Program-made: the position numbers and the translations under genes
The notes under the pieces: generated by a model
The model's input: the letters and a program-made list of their open reading frames with translations, nothing else
Told to the model about the DNA's origin: nothing
Database searches by the model: none
Source of the DNA: a virus
Reading direction: 5' to 3' (one strand)
DNA: 40,854 nucleotides
Virus record (IMG/VR): IMGVR_UViG_3300035156_000204
Location: 1 to 40,854 of that record
Shown: piece after piece, positions 2,934 to 40,375 of the stretch
Layout: each line of letters starts with the position of its first letter
Position numbering within the stretch: the stretch's first letter is position 1

Positions 2934-3245
2934 TCATGCGAGAAAGACGCCGTCGTCAGATTCGTTGCGCTGGTGCTCAGGCGTAGGGCTGCTAACACCG
3001 GCGAAGCTGATCAGGCCAAGAGCAAAGGCACGCGCCACCAGCTGCGTGCGTTTTAGGACCCCAAGCTTGGTTGTCAGGGAGAGCAGGCGCTTGCTGACGC
3101 TGTCAGGTGCTAGGCCCAAGTCCTTCGCGATCTGCTTGGTGGTTTGCCCGGCCGCGACAGCCAAAAGACATTCCAGCTCGCGAGGCGCTGCGCCTCGTCC
3201 AAGGACGCCGATCAGGCCGTGAGCAGAAATGGTTGCGGTATTCAT
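2934..3245 (-). CDS. orphan LuxR-type helix-turn-helix regulator
   Basis: Of 103 residues, about 20-80 form a GerE/LuxR-type four-helix DNA-binding domain: RELECLLAVAAGQTTKQIAK, then a recognition helix region in LAPDSVSKRLLSLTTKLGV. The conserved Glu of the first helix and the invariant Gly and Ile positions are present. There is no receiver or autoinducer-binding domain, so it is a stand-alone HTH protein. It is the first gene of the leftward operon, 28 nt or so after the expected PL start, and sits directly under two CI operators. It should therefore be expressed early in induction and be silent in the lysogen. The target is unknown. Confidence 0.82.
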   Translation of the reverse strand: MNTATISAHGLIGVLGRGAAPRELECLLAVAAGQTTKQIAKDLGLAPDSVSKRLLSLTTKLGVLKRTQLVARAFALGLISFAGVSSPTPEHQRNESDDGVFLA

Positions 3246-3279: not shown

Positions 3280-3319
3280 ACATTACCTTTGGCAATATAT
3301 TAAGTAAATACCTTTGGCA
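3280..3319 (-). promoter_or_regulatory. leftward early promoter PL with two repressor operators (OL)
   Basis: Two identical operator cores, TACCTTTGGCA, occupy 3284-3294 and 3309-3319, 25 bp apart centre to centre. Read leftward there is a -35 box TTTACT (3303-3308), a 17-bp spacer and a -10 box TAATGT (3280-3285). The -10 begins on the TA of the operator end, which is exactly the arrangement at PR. CI or Cro binding would block the promoter of the leftward operon. Confidence 0.75.
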
Positions 3320-3338
3320 ATATTATTTTCGTGGGGCG

Positions 3339-3362
3339 AAAAAAAGCCGCCATCAGGCGGCT
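3339..3362 (-). terminator. rho-independent terminator of cI
   Basis: On the minus strand the 7-bp stem AGCCGCC/GGCGGCT with a 4-nt loop (stem 3345-3351 with 3356-3362) is followed by a run of T residues. It lies just past the cI stop codon and ahead of PL, so it separates the repressor transcript from the leftward operon. Confidence 0.85.
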
Positions 3363-3374
3363 CGGGATTTGGTA

Positions 3375-4145
3375 TTAGGTTGGGCTTCCGCCTCGCCAGA
3401 GGACCCTGCCGAGTATTGGAAGCGCAGCAATATCAGCTTCGGCGACTATTTCGTCAGGGAAAAGATTCTTGTCAGGATTCTCACTCCTGATCACCCAAGC
3501 TCCTGACAGCTGCTGGATCATTCGCTTGACGGTGATTCCGCCGTCTCTCCGTTTTATCACAAAGATCTGCCGGTCCACAGGCGACTTCTGCGCCGAGTCG
3601 AAAAGAATCACATCCATTGCGCATATGTGCGGGGCCATGTCATTTCCATCAGCATAGACCACGAACAAGCGATGGGGTGACACGCCCATTCGCCGCAGCC
3701 ACCCTCGCCTGAACACAAGCCCCTCGGTTAACCCAACATGCTCGTCATTGACACCCTTGATGAATCGCTCCTCGAACATGTACTGAGGTATCAATACGTA
3801 TTCTTCGTGCGGCACAACTCCTTTGACTTGGTGGGCCGCTACTCGGTTAGCGATGAATGCTCGGTTTGCCTCCACGGATGCGGCGGTAAGCAGTTCAATT
3901 TCCTGTGCTAGGCGGGGGCTAAAATCAGAGATCTGAACCTCAAGGATCTTTGCGAACTCCGCTGCAACGGTGGCATTAAGGGGATTCACGGCGTTGAGGT
4001 AATGACTAACCGAGCTCTGGTTTATGCCCAGGTGCTCAGCAAGCTTTTCTTGAGTAAGTCCGAGGTCGCGCTTCTTCGCATTGAAGATGTTCTTCAACCG
4101 TAGGCATTCGGCTTTTCTGTCGTCTGGTAGATGTCGTTTGCTCAT
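3375..4145 (-). CDS. cI: CI-type lysogeny repressor (XRE HTH plus S24-like domain)
   Basis: A 256-residue repressor. The N-terminal HTH (about 27-55) includes LTQEKLAEHLGINQSSVSHY, and the C-terminal S24/LexA-like fold spans about 115-250. I chose the ATG at 4145. A longer open frame continues to 4259 but would cover the operators and PR, and its extra residues are not repressor-like. The S24 catalytic site is altered. The usual G-D/E-S-M-x-P reads GNDMAP, so Asp169 replaces the nucleophilic Ser, although the general-base Lys (K207 in ITVKRM) is kept. No Ala-Gly or Cys-Gly cleavage pair is seen in the linker. It is probably a dimerising repressor that cannot cut itself. It binds the five operators flanking its gene. 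Confidence 0.93.
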   Translation of the reverse strand: MSKRHLPDDRKAECLRLKNIFNAKKRDLGLTQEKLAEHLGINQSSVSHYLNAVNPLNATVAAEFAKILEVQISDFSPRLAQEIELLTAASVEANRAFIANRVAAHQVKGVVPHEEYVLIPQYMFEERFIKGVNDEHVGLTEGLVFRRGWLRRMGVSPHRLFVVYADGNDMAPHICAMDVILFDSAQKSPVDRQIFVIKRRDGGITVKRMIQQLSGAWVIRSENPDKNLFPDEIVAEADIAALPILGRVLWRGGSPT

Positions 4146-4151
4146 TAGAGA

Positions 4152-4222
4152 AGAATATTCCCTTTGGTAATATCTTGACAAATGCCAAAAGTATTTACAT
4201 TGAATAATGCCATAGGTACTAT
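4152..4222. promoter_or_regulatory. OR region: three operators with PR and PRM
   Basis: Three operator cores related to TACCTTTGGCA lie at 4159-4169 (TCCCTTTGGTA), 4183-4193 (TGCCAAAAGTA, opposite orientation) and 4208-4218 (TGCCATAGGTA, opposite orientation), at 24- and 25-bp spacing. PR reads rightward with -35 TTTACA (4194-4199), a 17-bp spacer and -10 TACTAT (4217-4222). A second possible -35, TTGACA, is at 4175-4180. PRM reads leftward toward cI with -35 TTGTCA (4176-4181) and -10 TATTCT (4152-4157), 18 bp apart. The cI-proximal operator lies in the PRM spacer and the cro-proximal one overlaps the PR -10, as in lambda. Confidence 0.8.
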
Positions 4223-4251: not shown

Positions 4252-4554
4252 GTGAGCAACCTTCACTTGAGAGATTTTGCCAAAGATCGCGGCCAGCCTG
4301 AGGCAGCTTCACTGCTGGGCCTAACCCAAGGCGCGCTCAGTAAGGCCATCCGCGTAGGGCGCAACATCATCGTGACCCACCAAGCCGACGGGACTTTCAC
4401 CGCTGAGGAGCGACGTCCTTTCCCGGCACGCTCAGATTCCAAGAGCAGGCCGCTAGATGCCCCAACCTTGAATGCAAATCTACGCACAAACCCATCCGCT
4501 GATCAGTCCGCTGAAAGTGCTGTGCAAGCATCCAGTATCGGGGCAGCGACATGA
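4252..4554 (+). CDS. cro: Cro-like repressor
   Basis: A 100-residue protein starting at GTG behind GGAGAG. The first 65 residues match the Cro family: LRDFAKDRGQPEAASLLGLT is helix 1 to helix 2, then QGALSKAIRVGRNI is the recognition helix, followed by a beta hairpin (TFTAEERRPFPA). It is the first gene under PR, about 25 nt after the expected start point. By analogy it would compete with CI for the operators and shut off PRM during lytic growth. The tail after residue 65 is polar and probably disordered. Confidence 0.88.
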   Translation: MSNLHLRDFAKDRGQPEAASLLGLTQGALSKAIRVGRNIIVTHQADGTFTAEERRPFPARSDSKSRPLDAPTLNANLRTNPSADQSAESAVQASSIGAAT

Positions 4555-5399: not shown

Positions 5400-5683
5400 A
5401 CAAGCCAGTTCCCACGATGCAAGAAGTGGCAGCCGATGCTGAGTTCCAGCTCATTGCTGCAGCCGATCAGCTCAATTGGCTGGCAGCGCTGGCAGGTGCC
5501 ATTCAACTTGATCATATCCACGCCGGCGGCCGGTGCGCCGCACACCTGGCCCAGATCGCACGCCATCTTAGCGACACTGGTTTTTGCGGCGTGCTCAGCG
5601 CGATCGACGAGCTCCAGAAGCTCAGCGAATCCGCGCCACAAAACCCCGAGATGCCAAATCGTGGCGCGGGAGGTGCGGCATGA
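5396..5683 (+). CDS. small early protein of unknown function (95 aa)
   Basis: A helical, Ala-rich protein with the segment AADQLNWLAALAGAIQLDHI and a polar C-terminus that also encodes the GGGAGG ribosome binding site of the antirepressor gene. Coupled by ATGA at both ends. Family not recognised. Confidence 0.65.
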   Translation: MNKPVPTMQEVAADAEFQLIAAADQLNWLAALAGAIQLDHIHAGGRCAAHLAQIARHLSDTGFCGVLSAIDELQKLSESAPQNPEMPNRGAGGAA

Positions 5684-6447
5684 GCCTGATCCCTTTCAAT
5701 TTTAACGGCGCTGCCATTCGCGTAATCACGGATGACGACAGCGCAGTATGGTTTGTTGCCAAGGACATTGCCGAGGACCTCGGCTACGTGTGGGCCGGCA
5801 CGTTGACGATTGCTCATGTCCCCGAGCAGTGGAGGGGGGTCAGATCTGTTCTGACCCCCTCAGGCACTCAGCAAATGGCGGTGCTGACCGAGCAAGGCCT
5901 GTATTTCTTCCTCGGCCGGTCCGACAAGGCTGGCGCCTTGCCGATGCAGATGTGGGTGGCTGGCGACGTGTTGCCGACAATCCGCGCTACCGGTAGCTAC
6001 CAACGCCCAATGACCCAGGCAGAGATCACTGCCGCGAACGCGAACCAGCTGGTGGCTGTGGAGCGTCAGCAGCGTGAGCACCAGGTGGCTCTGGAGCGAA
6101 TCGAGCAGAAGGTCGAAGGCATGGAGCGCTTCCATGTCTGGGATCACCGCCCATCCAACTGTTTGTCGCTGACCGGCGTTAAGGCCGAGATGAACAAGCG
6201 CTATGGCCTGTCCGGGGCGGTGGTCGATTACGTTCTGAAAGACTGGCCGCATCTCCCGAATCCCGCAGGCATGGTTCGCAACGGCCATGAGGAAGCGCTG
6301 GGCAGCCAGTACATGGTGTGGGCGAAGACGCTCGTCACCACTGCGTTCAAGCGCTTCGTCAGCGAATGCCAGATGGAAACTGCCACTCAGGCCACCCACC
6401 CATATTTCGAGGGCCGGTTCCGTCTGGTCCAGCAGGCCCAGTCATGA
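5680..6447 (+). CDS. ant: phage antirepressor with BRO-N domain
   Basis: A 255-residue protein whose N-terminal 110 residues are a typical BRO-N domain: FNFNGAAIRVITDDDSAVWF, then VAKDIAEDLGY, then LTEQGLYFFLGRSDK and PMQMWVAGDVLPTIRATGSY. A short helical linker (about 112-150, many Gln and Glu) leads to a C-terminal domain with LSLTGVKAEMNKRYGLSGAV. Antirepressors of this type inactivate phage repressors by direct binding. With an apparently non-cleavable CI here, this is a good candidate for the induction trigger. The ATG at 5680 has GGGAGG upstream and overlaps the previous stop. A perfect 10-bp hairpin lies inside the gene (5835-5859). Confidence 0.88.
   Translation: MSLIPFNFNGAAIRVITDDDSAVWFVAKDIAEDLGYVWAGTLTIAHVPEQWRGVRSVLTPSGTQQMAVLTEQGLYFFLGRSDKAGALPMQMWVAGDVLPTIRATGSYQRPMTQAEITAANANQLVAVERQQREHQVALERIEQKVEGMERFHVWDHRPSNCLSLTGVKAEMNKRYGLSGAVVDYVLKDWPHLPNPAGMVRNGHEEALGSQYMVWAKTLVTTAFKRFVSECQMETATQATHPYFEGRFRLVQQAQS
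5835..5859. repeat. perfect palindrome inside the antirepressor gene
   Basis: GGGGGTCAGA (5835-5844) and TCTGACCCCC (5850-5859) form a perfect 10-bp stem with loop TCTGT. It encodes RGVRSVLTPS at the conserved WRGV..TP position of the BRO-N domain. It could fold in the mRNA. The GGGGTCAGA / TCTGACCCC pair resembles palindromes found dispersed in Pseudomonas and Xanthomonas genomes. Confidence 0.7.
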
Positions 6448-32757: not shown

Positions 32758-33183
32758 ATGACCGTAACTGAGAGAGACCGTGACGTGCTCGCGCGCACGC
32801 TGTGGGGCGAAGCACGCGGGGAGGGGCTGGTCGGAATGGTGGCCGTGGCCTGGACGATCCGCAACCGCGTGGATGACGGAAAAGACAAGTCGTGGTGGGG
32901 CGAGGGTTACGCCGGCGTCTGCCAGAAGCCGTATCAGTTCAGCTGCTGGAACCGTAACGATCCGAACTACCCCTTCCTGATCGGCGCGCGCCAGATCCCA
33001 TTCCGCGAGTTAGCGCAATGTCGCATCGCTGCTGACCAGGTTATCGATGGCAAGGTGGCTGACCCCACCGGCGCCGCGACCCACTACTACGCGACCTCGA
33101 TGCCCAAGGCACCGGACTGGGCGGCTAAGGCAAAACGGACGCTGAAGCTCGGCAACCACATTTTCTTTCGCGACGTGCCTTGA
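32758..33183 (+). CDS. cell wall hydrolase, SleB-like (likely endolysin)
   Basis: A 141-residue protein with the Hydrolase_2 / SleB signature: TLWGEARGEGLVGMVAVAWT, IRNRVDD, QKPYQFSCWN, then TGAATHYYATSMPKAPDWAA. The family includes lytic enzymes that cleave glycan strands of peptidoglycan; the Glu in WGEARGE is the presumed catalytic residue. There is no signal peptide, so it needs the holin. No other lysozyme is encoded next to holin and spanins, so this is probably the phage endolysin. CTGGAG lies upstream of the ATG. Confidence 0.87.
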   Translation: MTVTERDRDVLARTLWGEARGEGLVGMVAVAWTIRNRVDDGKDKSWWGEGYAGVCQKPYQFSCWNRNDPNYPFLIGARQIPFRELAQCRIAADQVIDGKVADPTGAATHYYATSMPKAPDWAAKAKRTLKLGNHIFFRDVP

Positions 33184-33192
33184 GAGCTAGAC

Positions 33193-33411
33193 ATGCAGAC
33201 GACGACAAAGGAAGAAACCTACTCGCGCGCGATGCGCGTGACCCTGGGCGTAAAGGCAAACGGTGGCTCGGTCGCGATTCAGATCAAAATGGGCGACAGT
33301 TGGGTGACGTCAGACACGCTATGGAACGACGGGGCTTACCAGCTCAACATCCCGCCGGCAACGGTCCGATTCGTTCCGGCCGGTGGCGCTGCATTCGAGG
33401 TGTTCGCATGA
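33193..33411 (+). CDS. small tail-end protein of unknown function (72 aa)
   Basis: A beta-rich protein (SRAMRVTLGVKANGGSVAIQ, GDSWVTSDTLWNDGAYQLNI) ending AAFEVFA. Its ATG lies 9 nt after the hydrolase stop, and its own stop overlaps the SGNH hydrolase ATG as ATGA. It probably forms part of a structural or surface-binding complex with that enzyme. Family not recognised. Confidence 0.7.
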   Translation: MQTTTKEETYSRAMRVTLGVKANGGSVAIQIKMGDSWVTSDTLWNDGAYQLNIPPATVRFVPAGGAAFEVFA

Positions 33412-34652
33412 CCCTTCTCGCCGAGGCGCAGCCGACGCGGCGCCGTATCCGCCGTGGTTTGGGCCTGCTGGGCGACAGCTTCAGCGCGAACTGCCATACG
33501 ATTGATCCGAAAGCCTTCGGTACCGAAGCTTATGGATACGCCGGCGCGATTGCGGCAAAAACGGGTCTGTTCCCGAGTTACCTGGACAATCAGGGGAAGG
33601 TCGGTGACCACTCTGGACAGTTCATGGCACGGTTGCCGTCCTGCCTGACTTCAGCGACGGCCGATTTGTGGATGCTGCTATCGCGCACGAACGACAGCAC
33701 GACGCCGGGTATGACGCTCGTGGACAGCAAGGCCAACGTGATGAAGGCCATCACCGCGTTCCAGAGCACGCCCGGGAAGTACCTGATTGTCGGCACCGGT
33801 ACGCCGCGGTTCGGCACCAAGGCATTAACCGGCCAGGCACTGGCAGACGCGATCGTCTATAAGGATTGGGTGCTGACCTACGTCAAACAGTTCGTGCCGG
33901 TGGTGAATATCTGGGATGGCTTCACCCAAGACATGACCGTTGACGATCTGCATCCGAACCTTACTGGCGCCGACTTCATTCAGTCCCGCTGCGTGCCGGT
34001 CATCAACGCCAATTTCGAGTTCTTCGGCGTGCCGCTGGCCACGGACGCCGCCGATCTGTACTCGGCGATTCGTCCGTTCGGCTGCCTGAACGCCAATCCG
34101 CTGATGACTGGCTCGGCTGGCGTCATCAACGCGTCGGTCAATCCGGTAGCCGGATCGGTGCTGGCAGACAACTACAAGGCTTCCGGCTCCGGCCTGGCCG
34201 GTATCACGTCGCGCTGGTACAAGGAGCCTGCCGCATATGGCGAGGCGCAGTGTATTGAGTTGGCCGGCGCGATGGCTGCCGCCGGCGGCTACATCTACGT
34301 GCAGCCTGCGGCGAACGTCACGCTGTCGAATGTGCTGACCGGGGATGTAATCGAGATGGTTTCGGCGCCGGAGATCGTCGGCAACACCCGGGGAATCCTT
34401 GGCTGGGAAGCAGAGCTGATCATCACCAAACCGGTGGCGGGTACGTCCACCACTATCTACTACCGGTCGATGGACAAGTATCAGGAGCCGTTCACATTGC
34501 CGGCCAACTGGAAGGGCGCGCTGGAGACGCAGCGGTACACGACCGACGTCACGGAGACTGTGATCACCGCGCGCATGGGACTGTACCTGGCCGCAGGCAT
34601 TACGCAGGACTCCCAGGTGAAGGTTGCCCAGTTCGGATTGCGAAAGGTCTGA
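33408..34652 (+). CDS. SGNH/GDSL-type hydrolase (phage-associated esterase)
   Basis: A 414-residue protein. Block I is LLGDSFSANC with the nucleophile Ser24, block III includes SRTNDS (Asn95) and block V is VDDLHPNLTG with Asp179 and His182. The C-terminal half (about 200-414) is beta-rich and may form a carbohydrate-binding or virion-anchoring module. Such enzymes remove acetyl or other acyl groups from surface polysaccharides. Here it may be a virion depolymerase/deacetylase or a lysogenic conversion enzyme. I took ATG 33408; a longer frame upstream overlaps the small gene in an unlikely composition. Confidence 0.85.
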   Translation: MTLLAEAQPTRRRIRRGLGLLGDSFSANCHTIDPKAFGTEAYGYAGAIAAKTGLFPSYLDNQGKVGDHSGQFMARLPSCLTSATADLWMLLSRTNDSTTPGMTLVDSKANVMKAITAFQSTPGKYLIVGTGTPRFGTKALTGQALADAIVYKDWVLTYVKQFVPVVNIWDGFTQDMTVDDLHPNLTGADFIQSRCVPVINANFEFFGVPLATDAADLYSAIRPFGCLNANPLMTGSAGVINASVNPVAGSVLADNYKASGSGLAGITSRWYKEPAAYGEAQCIELAGAMAAAGGYIYVQPAANVTLSNVLTGDVIEMVSAPEIVGNTRGILGWEAELIITKPVAGTSTTIYYRSMDKYQEPFTLPANWKGALETQRYTTDVTETVITARMGLYLAAGITQDSQVKVAQFGLRKV

Positions 34653-38725: not shown

Positions 38726-39211
38726 TTAGCCGCCTTCTGGAAGAACCAGCTCCTGCAGACGCATCGTGCTACACTGGGATATGAGATAATTTTTCCAGTA
38801 GGGGATAACATAATTGACCGCTTCATGTAATGCGAAGTCATCGAGCTCGGCTTGCTCGTAACGCTTGATTAAGCTGAATTCGGCAACAATTTCACATTCA
38901 ATCGTTATCAGCCCGATCGCATCCTCTGATTCCGGATCTTCCAAGGCAGAGTCTTCGGTTATCGTACTGTCTTTAGTTTCCGCATATGACCATTTGGCGC
39001 CAAATTTAAAGAAAACCCTAAATCTACCAGTGCCATCAGTCTTGGATATCAGCGCCTGAGACCGATCCACAGACACCAAGTTTTTCAATTCCAAGTCGGC
39101 AATATTTTCTTCGAACGTGGGATCGTAACCCTTGGCAAAATACGCCCTTGTCTCAGTGACATAAACGTCGCTGAACTGCGGCCCTTCTTTATCTGCGGGT
39201 ATGGCGGTCAT
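38726..39211 (-). CDS. SecB-like chaperone of a toxin-antitoxin-chaperone module
   Basis: A 161-residue protein (E. coli SecB is 155). The N-terminal part has the SecB-type strand FSDVYVTETRAYF; the C-terminal part has ITIECEIVAEFSLIKRYEQA, then AVNYVIPYWKNYLISQCSTM and LQELVLPE. These correspond to SecB's 'FSIAGIEG...CPNILFPYAREsI...R..FP.L.L.P'. I chose ATG 39211, with AGGAAG upstream, over ATG 39268. The gene overlaps the antitoxin end by 23 nt. In TAC modules a dedicated SecB-like chaperone folds and protects the antitoxin; loss of chaperone function frees the toxin. The final helix is shorter than in SecB. Confidence 0.82.
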   Translation of the reverse strand: MTAIPADKEGPQFSDVYVTETRAYFAKGYDPTFEENIADLELKNLVSVDRSQALISKTDGTGRFRVFFKFGAKWSYAETKDSTITEDSALEDPESEDAIGLITIECEIVAEFSLIKRYEQAELDDFALHEAVNYVIPYWKNYLISQCSTMRLQELVLPEGG

Positions 39212-39941
39212 ACTCTTCCTCGCTATATCTAGGCGATAAAAGGGACTGTATATTTTCCTCTTCGCCATACAGTCGGATTTTACGTTCTACCACCCCAGCA
39301 ACAACGTGAACGGCAGTCTGGGTAGCACCCAATTCAACGGATTGATGGTAGGGTATCAATCGCTTTTCGATCTGTGATCTAAGGCTTGAATTATATGTAG
39401 AACTTTCAAGCGAACTCATAACCCATGGTAATCGTGGAGCTGTTCTAGAACCAAAGATCATACCGATATTGATATTATAAAATTGTTGCTCTAATGTCTG
39501 CTCGGCAGCTTTATGTAACTCTTTCACTGAAGCTTTTGAAAAAAGCCATTGCTTGGCCGCAGGCACTTCACTAGCAAGCCTTACAAGGTTATCCATCGCT
39601 TCAGACTGAGTTACATCGTCCGCTTCATATTTGGCGAACGAGTTCGGGCCGCCTCCAAATATAGCAGCAGCTTGAACTTGGGTCAGTCCGAGTTCAATAC
39701 GCGTATCACGCATCTGCTGCCCGGTCAGTCGTCCATCAACTTCTTTTCTAAAGTAAGTCATCGCACGCTGGTTGTCCCGGACTTGGGTGGAGGATGCTTG
39801 AACACATCCACAAACGTCACACACTGATGACTTCGAGTGGACCTGCCCATGGCGACCTTTGTATTCAACTACCCTGTCACAGCCGACCTCATGCAAGCTA
39901 CCCTCGTCGCAGATCGGGCAAGTCTCGGTATGAATATTCAT
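39189..39941 (-). CDS. mqsA: MqsA-like antitoxin with long C-terminal extension
   Basis: A 250-residue protein. The N-terminal zinc domain has C8, C11, C41 and C44 (CPICDEG ... CDVCG). The XRE HTH (about 72-120) has LGLTQVQAAAIFGGGPNSFA-KYE, very like MqsA's LTQKEASEIFGGGVNAFSRYE. Residues 125-250 are an extension absent from E. coli MqsA (131 aa), ending in an acidic/basic tail, likely the part that needs the chaperone. I took ATG 39941: GGGAGG lies 4 nt upstream and it overlaps the toxin stop as ATGA. It should neutralise the toxin and repress the operon. Confidence 0.88.
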   Translation of the reverse strand: MNIHTETCPICDEGSLHEVGCDRVVEYKGRHGQVHSKSSVCDVCGCVQASSTQVRDNQRAMTYFRKEVDGRLTGQQMRDTRIELGLTQVQAAAIFGGGPNSFAKYEADDVTQSEAMDNLVRLASEVPAAKQWLFSKASVKELHKAAEQTLEQQFYNINIGMIFGSRTAPRLPWVMSSLESSTYNSSLRSQIEKRLIPYHQSVELGATQTAVHVVAGVVERKIRLYGEEENIQSLLSPRYSEEEYDRHTRR

Positions 39942-40375
39942 AGATCCTCCCAATGGTCTGAGTGATGACAAGAAATCAGCAACATTATTACACCTTTTTT
40001 TCCGATGCAAAATTTGACGTAGAGCGGCAGTTCAAGTTCCTGCTCGGCATGTTGCCCCTGCTCGCTCCTCGAGACTTTGTAAGCATCGCACGCTGCCCAC
40101 ACCCCTGGCTTTCCGGTTTCACACCACTGCGCGTTAAGGTACTGACCGTGCGTCACAGCCCTGGTGAGGAGACTCACCAATCCCGCGTTGTTTAGGTTGA
40201 GATTCTGTACGTCATCAATGCAGGTTCGGGTGACTGGGCGAACCTCAACCTCTTGAGATAACAGATTGAGCACCTCAGCATGGGGATAGATTGGCCCACC
40301 ATTGATCCGCCTCGATGCGCCGGGCCCGGGCGCTCCGCCTTTGGAGTAACGGCTTAGGATTAATGAGGTTACCAT
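39938..40375 (-). CDS. putative toxin, divergent MqsR-like
   Basis: A 145-residue protein, first in a three-gene operon with an MqsA-like antitoxin and a SecB-like chaperone. The order of elements suits the MqsR fold: a helix (YPHAEVLNLLSQ), VRPVTRTCIDDVQNLNLNNA, a helix LVSLLTRAV, then strands ending LPLYVKFCIGKKGVIMLLIS. The YVKF strand aligns with MqsR's YLKI. The DFYKSM loop of MqsR is replaced by a segment with GQYLNAQWCETGKPGVWAAC. MqsR is an mRNA interferase; whether this protein keeps that activity is not shown by the sequence. It is larger than MqsR (98 aa). Confidence 0.7.
   Translation of the reverse strand: MVTSLILSRYSKGGAPGPGASRRINGGPIYPHAEVLNLLSQEVEVRPVTRTCIDDVQNLNLNNAGLVSLLTRAVTHGQYLNAQWCETGKPGVWAACDAYKVSRSEQGQHAEQELELPLYVKFCIGKKGVIMLLISCHHSDHWEDL

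Follow-up and report, generated by a model that had tools for sequence, protein, structure and literature searches.

A lambda-type immunity switch in a temperate Pseudomonas phage, with a repressor lacking autoprotease residues and a LuxR/GerE-type PL gene paired with a candidate site at the end of cro

How would a prophage be induced if it keeps the operator and promoter wiring of lambda and its repressor has lost the residues for self-cleavage? This question is raised by the immunity region of the phage described here. The window (the whole stretch of DNA analysed, a virus record of 40,854 bases) has genes for integrase, excisionase, DnaC/DnaB replication, a Q-like antiterminator and contractile-tail structure, and the phage is a temperate, contractile-tailed Pseudomonas phage. 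Its immunity region comprises cI (4145-3375), OL and the PL gene (3245-2934) in the leftward direction, and PR and cro (4252-4554) in the rightward direction. Elsewhere in the window, a large phrog_6102 protein (annotated lipase/moron, 7.8e-147) is encoded 3' of the tail genes at 33180-34652 on the plus strand, and an MqsA-antitoxin-like protein (39189-40010, minus strand; Pfam 1.8e-16), together with a short overlapping ORF (38726-39268), may form a toxin-antitoxin or accessory module close to the right end.

The original prediction described five operators of one consensus spaced by 24-25 bp, together with PL and PR promoters of the same geometry, each having a -35 element, a 17-bp spacer and a -10 element that starts on the last TA of an operator. 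All five operators are found at the predicted positions, with the consensus TACCTTTGGCA and with centres 25 bp apart at OL and 24 and 25 bp apart at OR, and the promoter geometry is as described. PRM, which was absent from that prediction, sits at lambda geometry. The elements of the switch are as follows (clades A and B are the two groups of CI sequences delimited below).

3284-3294: OL1 operator TACCTTTGGCA, overlapping the PL -10; a homologous site is present in all 13 clade A/B loci
3309-3319: OL2 operator TACCTTTGGCA, 25 bp from OL1; spacing exactly 25 bp in 13 of 13 loci
4159-4169: OR3 operator TCCCTTTGGTA, inside PRM; TACCnnnGGGA form conserved
4183-4193: OR2 operator TGCCAAAAGTA, next to the PRM -35 on its upstream side, with 43 bp between its centre and the cI first base
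4208-4218: OR1 operator TGCCATAGGTA, overlapping the PR -10
3308-3280, minus strand: PL, -35 TTTACT (3308-3303), 17-bp spacer, -10 TAATGT (3285-3280); geometry shared with relatives
4194-4222, plus strand: PR, -35 TTTACA (4194-4199), 17-bp spacer, -10 TACTAT (4217-4222)
4181-4152, minus strand: PRM, -35 TTGTCA (4181-4176), 18-bp spacer, -10 TATTCT (4157-4152)
3344-3363, minus strand: intrinsic terminator after cI, GC stem of 8 pairs and T run
3375-4145, minus strand: cI repressor of 256 aa, with a DNA-binding domain of the lambda CI type and an S24/LexA-like C-terminal domain with Asp169 and the scissile dipeptide lost
4252-4554, plus strand: cro, member of the lambda Cro family, 100 aa including a C-terminal tail (Pfam Cro, PF09048, 6.9e-18)

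A chance origin of this array is ruled out by simulation. With the OL sequence as query, up to two mismatches allowed and the same intergenic DNA modelled as an order-1 Markov chain, the five sites observed in the two intergenic stretches together compare with at most two in any simulated draw (mean 0.075; 20,000 draws), and the three sites of the OR stretch alone were reached in 0 of 20,000 draws. No further operator copy with at most one mismatch occurs elsewhere in the window. Scans of genome contigs with CI yielded no useful relative, whereas a sampled search of Pseudomonas genomes located relatives of CI in the genus group of G311 (Pseudomonas-type by its OprI lipoprotein). The arrangement is conserved: one OR register, with sites some 73, 48 and 24 bp ahead of cI, is common to all 17 Pseudomonas phages and prophages, 14 of them have no OR site that departs from the consensus by more than three mismatches, and the OL pair is exactly 25 bp apart in each of the 13 that have an OL array. 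Across these relatives the outer operator letters stay while spacer and centre positions change, and OR3 is always the deviant site, reading TACCnnnGGGA or near it. The predicted identity of the two OL sites is true of the window; relatives have non-identical pairs, so that identity, being specific to this genome, is ruled out as a functional signal. To judge from these alignments, the conserved feature is the departure of OR3 rather than the sameness of the OL pair, and graded affinity among the operators is plausible.

CI and Cro would be the expected ligands of the five sites, since the CI N-terminal domain and Cro are homologous to those of lambda. Residues 3-84 of CI align to lambda repressor structures (E 1.3e-15), the predicted structure of CI agrees with that of the lambda CI N-terminal domain (TM 0.96) and has a more remote match in the LexA/lambda C-terminal domain, and Cro matches lambda Cro structures at 1.8e-10 (1cop). 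As in lambda, cI and cro are divergent with three like operators between them, placed equally relative to cI (centres of OR3, OR2 and OR1 at 19, 43 and 68 bp from the first cI base, against 19, 42 and 66 bp in the annotated lambda record), and the same operators recur as an OL array at PL. OR3 lies inside PRM and OR2 adjoins it, positions that by geometry would suit repression and activation of PRM, respectively. Because the PRM -10 ends about 6 nt before the cI ATG, a distance kept in relatives, the predicted cI mRNA should start at or adjoining that ATG (4145) and be leaderless, again in the lambda manner. The lambda-like switch of the original prediction is thus supported at the level of sequence, through CI homology, Cro homology, operator geometry within 2 bp and conservation of the array in 17 genomes; calling it complete was an overstatement. 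OL has two sites (no OL3), in contrast to three in lambda, in 13 of 13 loci having the array; the ORFs tested between cro and dnaC gave no Phage_CII match in a profile search, neither cIII nor the N antiterminator was found, and the PL gene encodes a GerE-HTH protein. N, cII and cIII are accessory features and not the switch itself. The locus further differs from lambda in operator sequence and in an OL-OR distance of about 0.9 kb without rex genes, as against about 2.4 kb, and the open-licence literature holds no account of a switch with this operator.

A further departure from lambda lies in the C-terminal domain of CI. In the window and seven relatives (clade A, eight sequences), the catalytic Ser of the S24 domain is replaced by Asp (Asp169 in the window), within GNDM or TNDM, and the general-base Lys207 is kept; nine sister sequences (clade B) keep the Ser and have Arg in place of the catalytic Lys. 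The scissile C/A-G dipeptide is replaced in both groups, by RF in clade A and SF in clade B, D3-type CIs having CG. Ser and Lys, and a linker dipeptide made of a small residue and Gly, persist in nearly all the other homologues compared. When the protease-residue columns are left out of the tree, all 17 sequences group together (support 100/99), and their clade lies within D3-type domains whose dyad is intact. Purifying selection continues to act on the C-terminal domain (pN/pS 0.175), a constraint to be expected if it serves dimerisation. Outside this clade, the CI of phage PAE2 (L020) combines a Lys-to-Arg change with the lack of an A/C-G dipeptide and may have lost its protease independently.

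With the Ser/Lys dyad broken and the scissile dipeptide lost, SOS-triggered cleavage is unlikely, and the residues make RecA-triggered self-cleavage of this CI very unlikely indeed. Lambda-like induction by SOS cleavage through an altered active site (Asp169/Lys207, or Ser/Arg in clade B) could appeal to the retention of Lys207 in clade A and of Ser in clade B, and to the conservation of the C-terminal domain; however, the dyad is broken differently in two related groups, the small residue-Gly dipeptide is gone in both, and the CB repressor of coliphage N15, an S24/LexA-like protein without the same catalytic residues (GNQI, IQR), is reported as non-proteolytic (PMC10432266), all of which leaves such cleavage scarcely credible. 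N15 CB differs from the window CI in its DNA-binding domain and is no close relative. The Lys to Arg change in clade B might leave slow cleavage there. Since the autoprotease residues are lost, CI would have to be removed by some other route, for which an antirepressor supplied in trans is the likeliest, and the PR operon of the window offers one candidate.

5680-6447, plus strand: Bro-N/Ant-type candidate antirepressor, in the PR operon (Pfam Bro-N 1.7e-13, phrog_130 6.3e-31)

Titration of CI by the product of this gene, or by the antirepressor of a co-resident prophage, is compatible with the explanation preferred here and is offered tentatively. It draws on the presence of the Ant-type gene and on the Gifsy prophages of Salmonella (GfoR/GtgR), the repressors of which are inactivated by antirepressors (PMC3121763) and, as predicted for the window CI, are not cleaved on induction (PMC3121763); one such antirepressor, FsoA, is itself controlled by the repressor of the phage that encodes it and can act on other prophages (PMC3121763). 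Against the resident gene, it lies under PR and would hence be repressed by CI itself, it has no LexA box, and it is missing from several clade members, being present in only some relatives, among which the antirepressor genes differ. Gifsy repressors are, moreover, short and without the C-terminal domain, whereas the window CI keeps the whole domain with a changed active site, and Gifsy antirepressors are LexA-controlled, whereas no CTGT-N8-ACAG LexA box is seen in the window. A LexA-controlled antirepressor inside the prophage was accordingly set aside, there being no perfect box in the window and none common to the relatives. Phage LKA5 (L010) has a perfect LexA-type box, CTGTATATAAATACAG, at 4125-4140, downstream of its protease-intact cI.

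The second distinguishing feature is the gene that PL would transcribe, together with a conserved sequence on the opposite arm.

2934-3245, minus strand: first PL gene, stand-alone LuxR/GerE-type HTH protein, 103 aa (Pfam GerE, PF00196, 2.9e-11; phrog_3282, 6.4e-31)
4520-4536, plus strand: conserved CTG-N10-CAG site CTGTGCAAGCATCCAGT at the end of cro, candidate target of the PL protein

The PL gene is present in all clade A/B loci, and its product is modelled as a four-helix GerE HTH fold with Foldseek matches to GerE, RhlR and LiaR, so that the PHROGs label "sigma factor" for the family appears doubtful. Two kinds of C-terminal tail are seen: a short one in the window, L006, L007 and L008, and one with a hydrophobic stretch followed by RRGGERR-like basic residues in F10, L005, L009 and clade B. 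Two relatives, L296 and L303, have perfect LexA-type boxes (CTGTATATACGTACAG and CTGTATAAAAATACAG) about 145 bp upstream of the LuxR-HTH gene, and their PL may, on that sequence, be under SOS control.

Every protease-dead locus has the CTG-N10-CAG site at the 3' end of cro, and the protease-intact LKA5, L117 and L118 lack it at that place. The site was dropped as a mark of protease loss because it also occurs in F10 and LESphi2, whose CI is intact; these two share the PL LuxR/GerE-HTH gene with the protease-dead loci. The site, which would suit a LuxR/GerE-type protein that binds a palindrome of the CT-N12-AG type, co-occurs with that gene almost without exception: twelve annotated phages with a LuxR-HTH gene and varied CI/Cro have it at or just after cro; of the viral contigs retrieved by the site alone and extending 4 kb or more on the cI side, 38 of 38 encode a LuxR-HTH protein on the expected strand; and in a protein-first search it lies on the expected side in 74 of 78 contigs, compared with 0.5% in shuffles, three of the four misses being cut short near the expected position. 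A first table of 51 Pseudomonas CI loci gave 8 with both, 0 with the gene only, 2 with the site only and 41 with neither (p 7e-8); in both site-only exceptions the gene lay just outside the first stretch once more flank was fetched, which brings the table to 10/0/0/41, most of the 41 double negatives having been searched over only 1.5 kb on the LuxR side. Contig counts overstate independence, given many close relatives, deduplicated counts being quoted where they were used, and phage mosaicism and shared ancestry inflate co-occurrence. No stop codon interrupts the reading frame at the site in any of the 34 distinct loci checked, which means that a peptide is encoded as well. Neighbouring residues differ among the loci, yet one codon always ends in CT and the Ser codon is always AGT, AGT making up 9% of Ser codons and GCT 16% of Ala codons; this pattern points to constraint on the DNA. 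Information is concentrated in the 17 bp of the site, at 1.38 bits per column, and falls to 0.29 in the columns that follow; CAGTCC, about 16 bp upstream, is a second stretch that is conserved. With the flanks controlled for, variation in the site follows similarity between the LuxR proteins (partial Mantel r 0.37). Taken together, these patterns suggest that the LuxR/GerE-HTH protein probably binds the site directly. The link between the two is a correlation, and some residual probability attaches to the site having a coding or LexA-like role instead.

The same sequence could be read as a LexA (SOS) box, through which the lost SOS control of CI would have been rerouted to LexA, freeing an antirepressor gene downstream of cro. 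The site does occur in every protease-dead locus, the window copy is one mismatch from CTGT-N8-ACAG, relative L116 has that motif perfectly, and KilA-N- or Bro-N-like genes follow the site in several relatives. Yet it is also found in intact-protease phages that have the LuxR-HTH gene (F10, LESphi2, L125, L127, L042) and is missing where that gene is missing, its middle is often GC-rich (GCAGGC), many copies read CTGG..CCAG, and its correlation with the LuxR protein persists when flanks are controlled, so that this role is unlikely. Less probable still is an antitermination pair of the N/nut type: a gene in the N position and a single-copy site of fixed orientation in the nutR position of lambda would fit it, but the conserved letters give at most a 3-4 bp hairpin, broken in clade B, there is no second site on the left arm, and the PL protein has a DNA-binding GerE fold; with no consistent terminator 3' of the site (4 of 37 loci), this alternative was set aside as highly improbable. 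A separate observation concerns L005, L008 and L029, in which a KilA-N-like frame, recognised from its translation rather than by a profile match, starts directly 3' of CTG-N10-CAG, unlike the window.

Comparison with other Pseudomonas phages separates the parts of this locus. LKA5 (Hollowayvirus) shares with the window the CI recognition helix NQSSVSHYLNGVNPLNA and the OR register, whereas its CI keeps GNSM, Lys and A-G and it has neither the LuxR-HTH gene nor CTG-N10-CAG after cro. The CIs of D3, F10 and JBD44 have a C-terminal domain of a family near that of the window CI, and D3 likewise has three annotated OR sites, whereas their CIs have intact Ser, Lys and C-G and other DNA-binding domains and operators; F10 has the LuxR-HTH gene and the site, as the window does, and D3 and JBD44 have neither.

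The whole explanation, which we regard as likely on the evidence of sequence comparison, is a lambda-type switch whose CI has lost its autoprotease, with an antirepressor in trans as the likely route of induction and a PL LuxR/GerE protein that probably targets the site at the end of cro. By homology and geometry, CI dimers would bind OL1/OL2 and OR1/OR2 and turn PL and PR off; CI at OR2, 43 bp upstream of the PRM start, would on geometry help RNA polymerase at PRM to make the leaderless cI mRNA, OR3 inside PRM would limit CI, and Cro would act from the same sites on the lytic side. RecA-triggered self-cleavage of CI would play no part in induction, and removal of CI would most likely fall to the antirepressor. 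PL would then yield, instead of N, a LuxR/GerE-type DNA-binding protein with the CTG-N10-CAG site in the PR operon as its probable target. The switch is of the lambda kind, and the dead CI protease and the LuxR-HTH/site frame set it apart.

We lean towards a broader reading, in which at least 100 Pseudomonas temperate phages share a conserved pair made up of a regulator, the stand-alone LuxR/GerE protein from PL, and its target, the site at the end of cro. Quite different cI-cro cassettes, whether their repressors are cleavable or dead, would be exchanged between gene and site, and the pair would commonly regulate early transcription where lambda has N. The open-licence literature gives no account of the pair, and the flanking partner gene and the conserved DNA site seem not to have been described together before. 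The locus provides a readable, testable lambda-type switch in Pseudomonas and a natural case in which the wiring of lambda is kept and its SOS trigger removed, two related lineages having broken the protease differently while retaining the operators, so that the induction of a non-cleavable lambda-type repressor becomes directly testable. The LuxR-HTH/site pair, for its part, gives a named candidate function and target to a protein family labelled "sigma factor" in phage databases.
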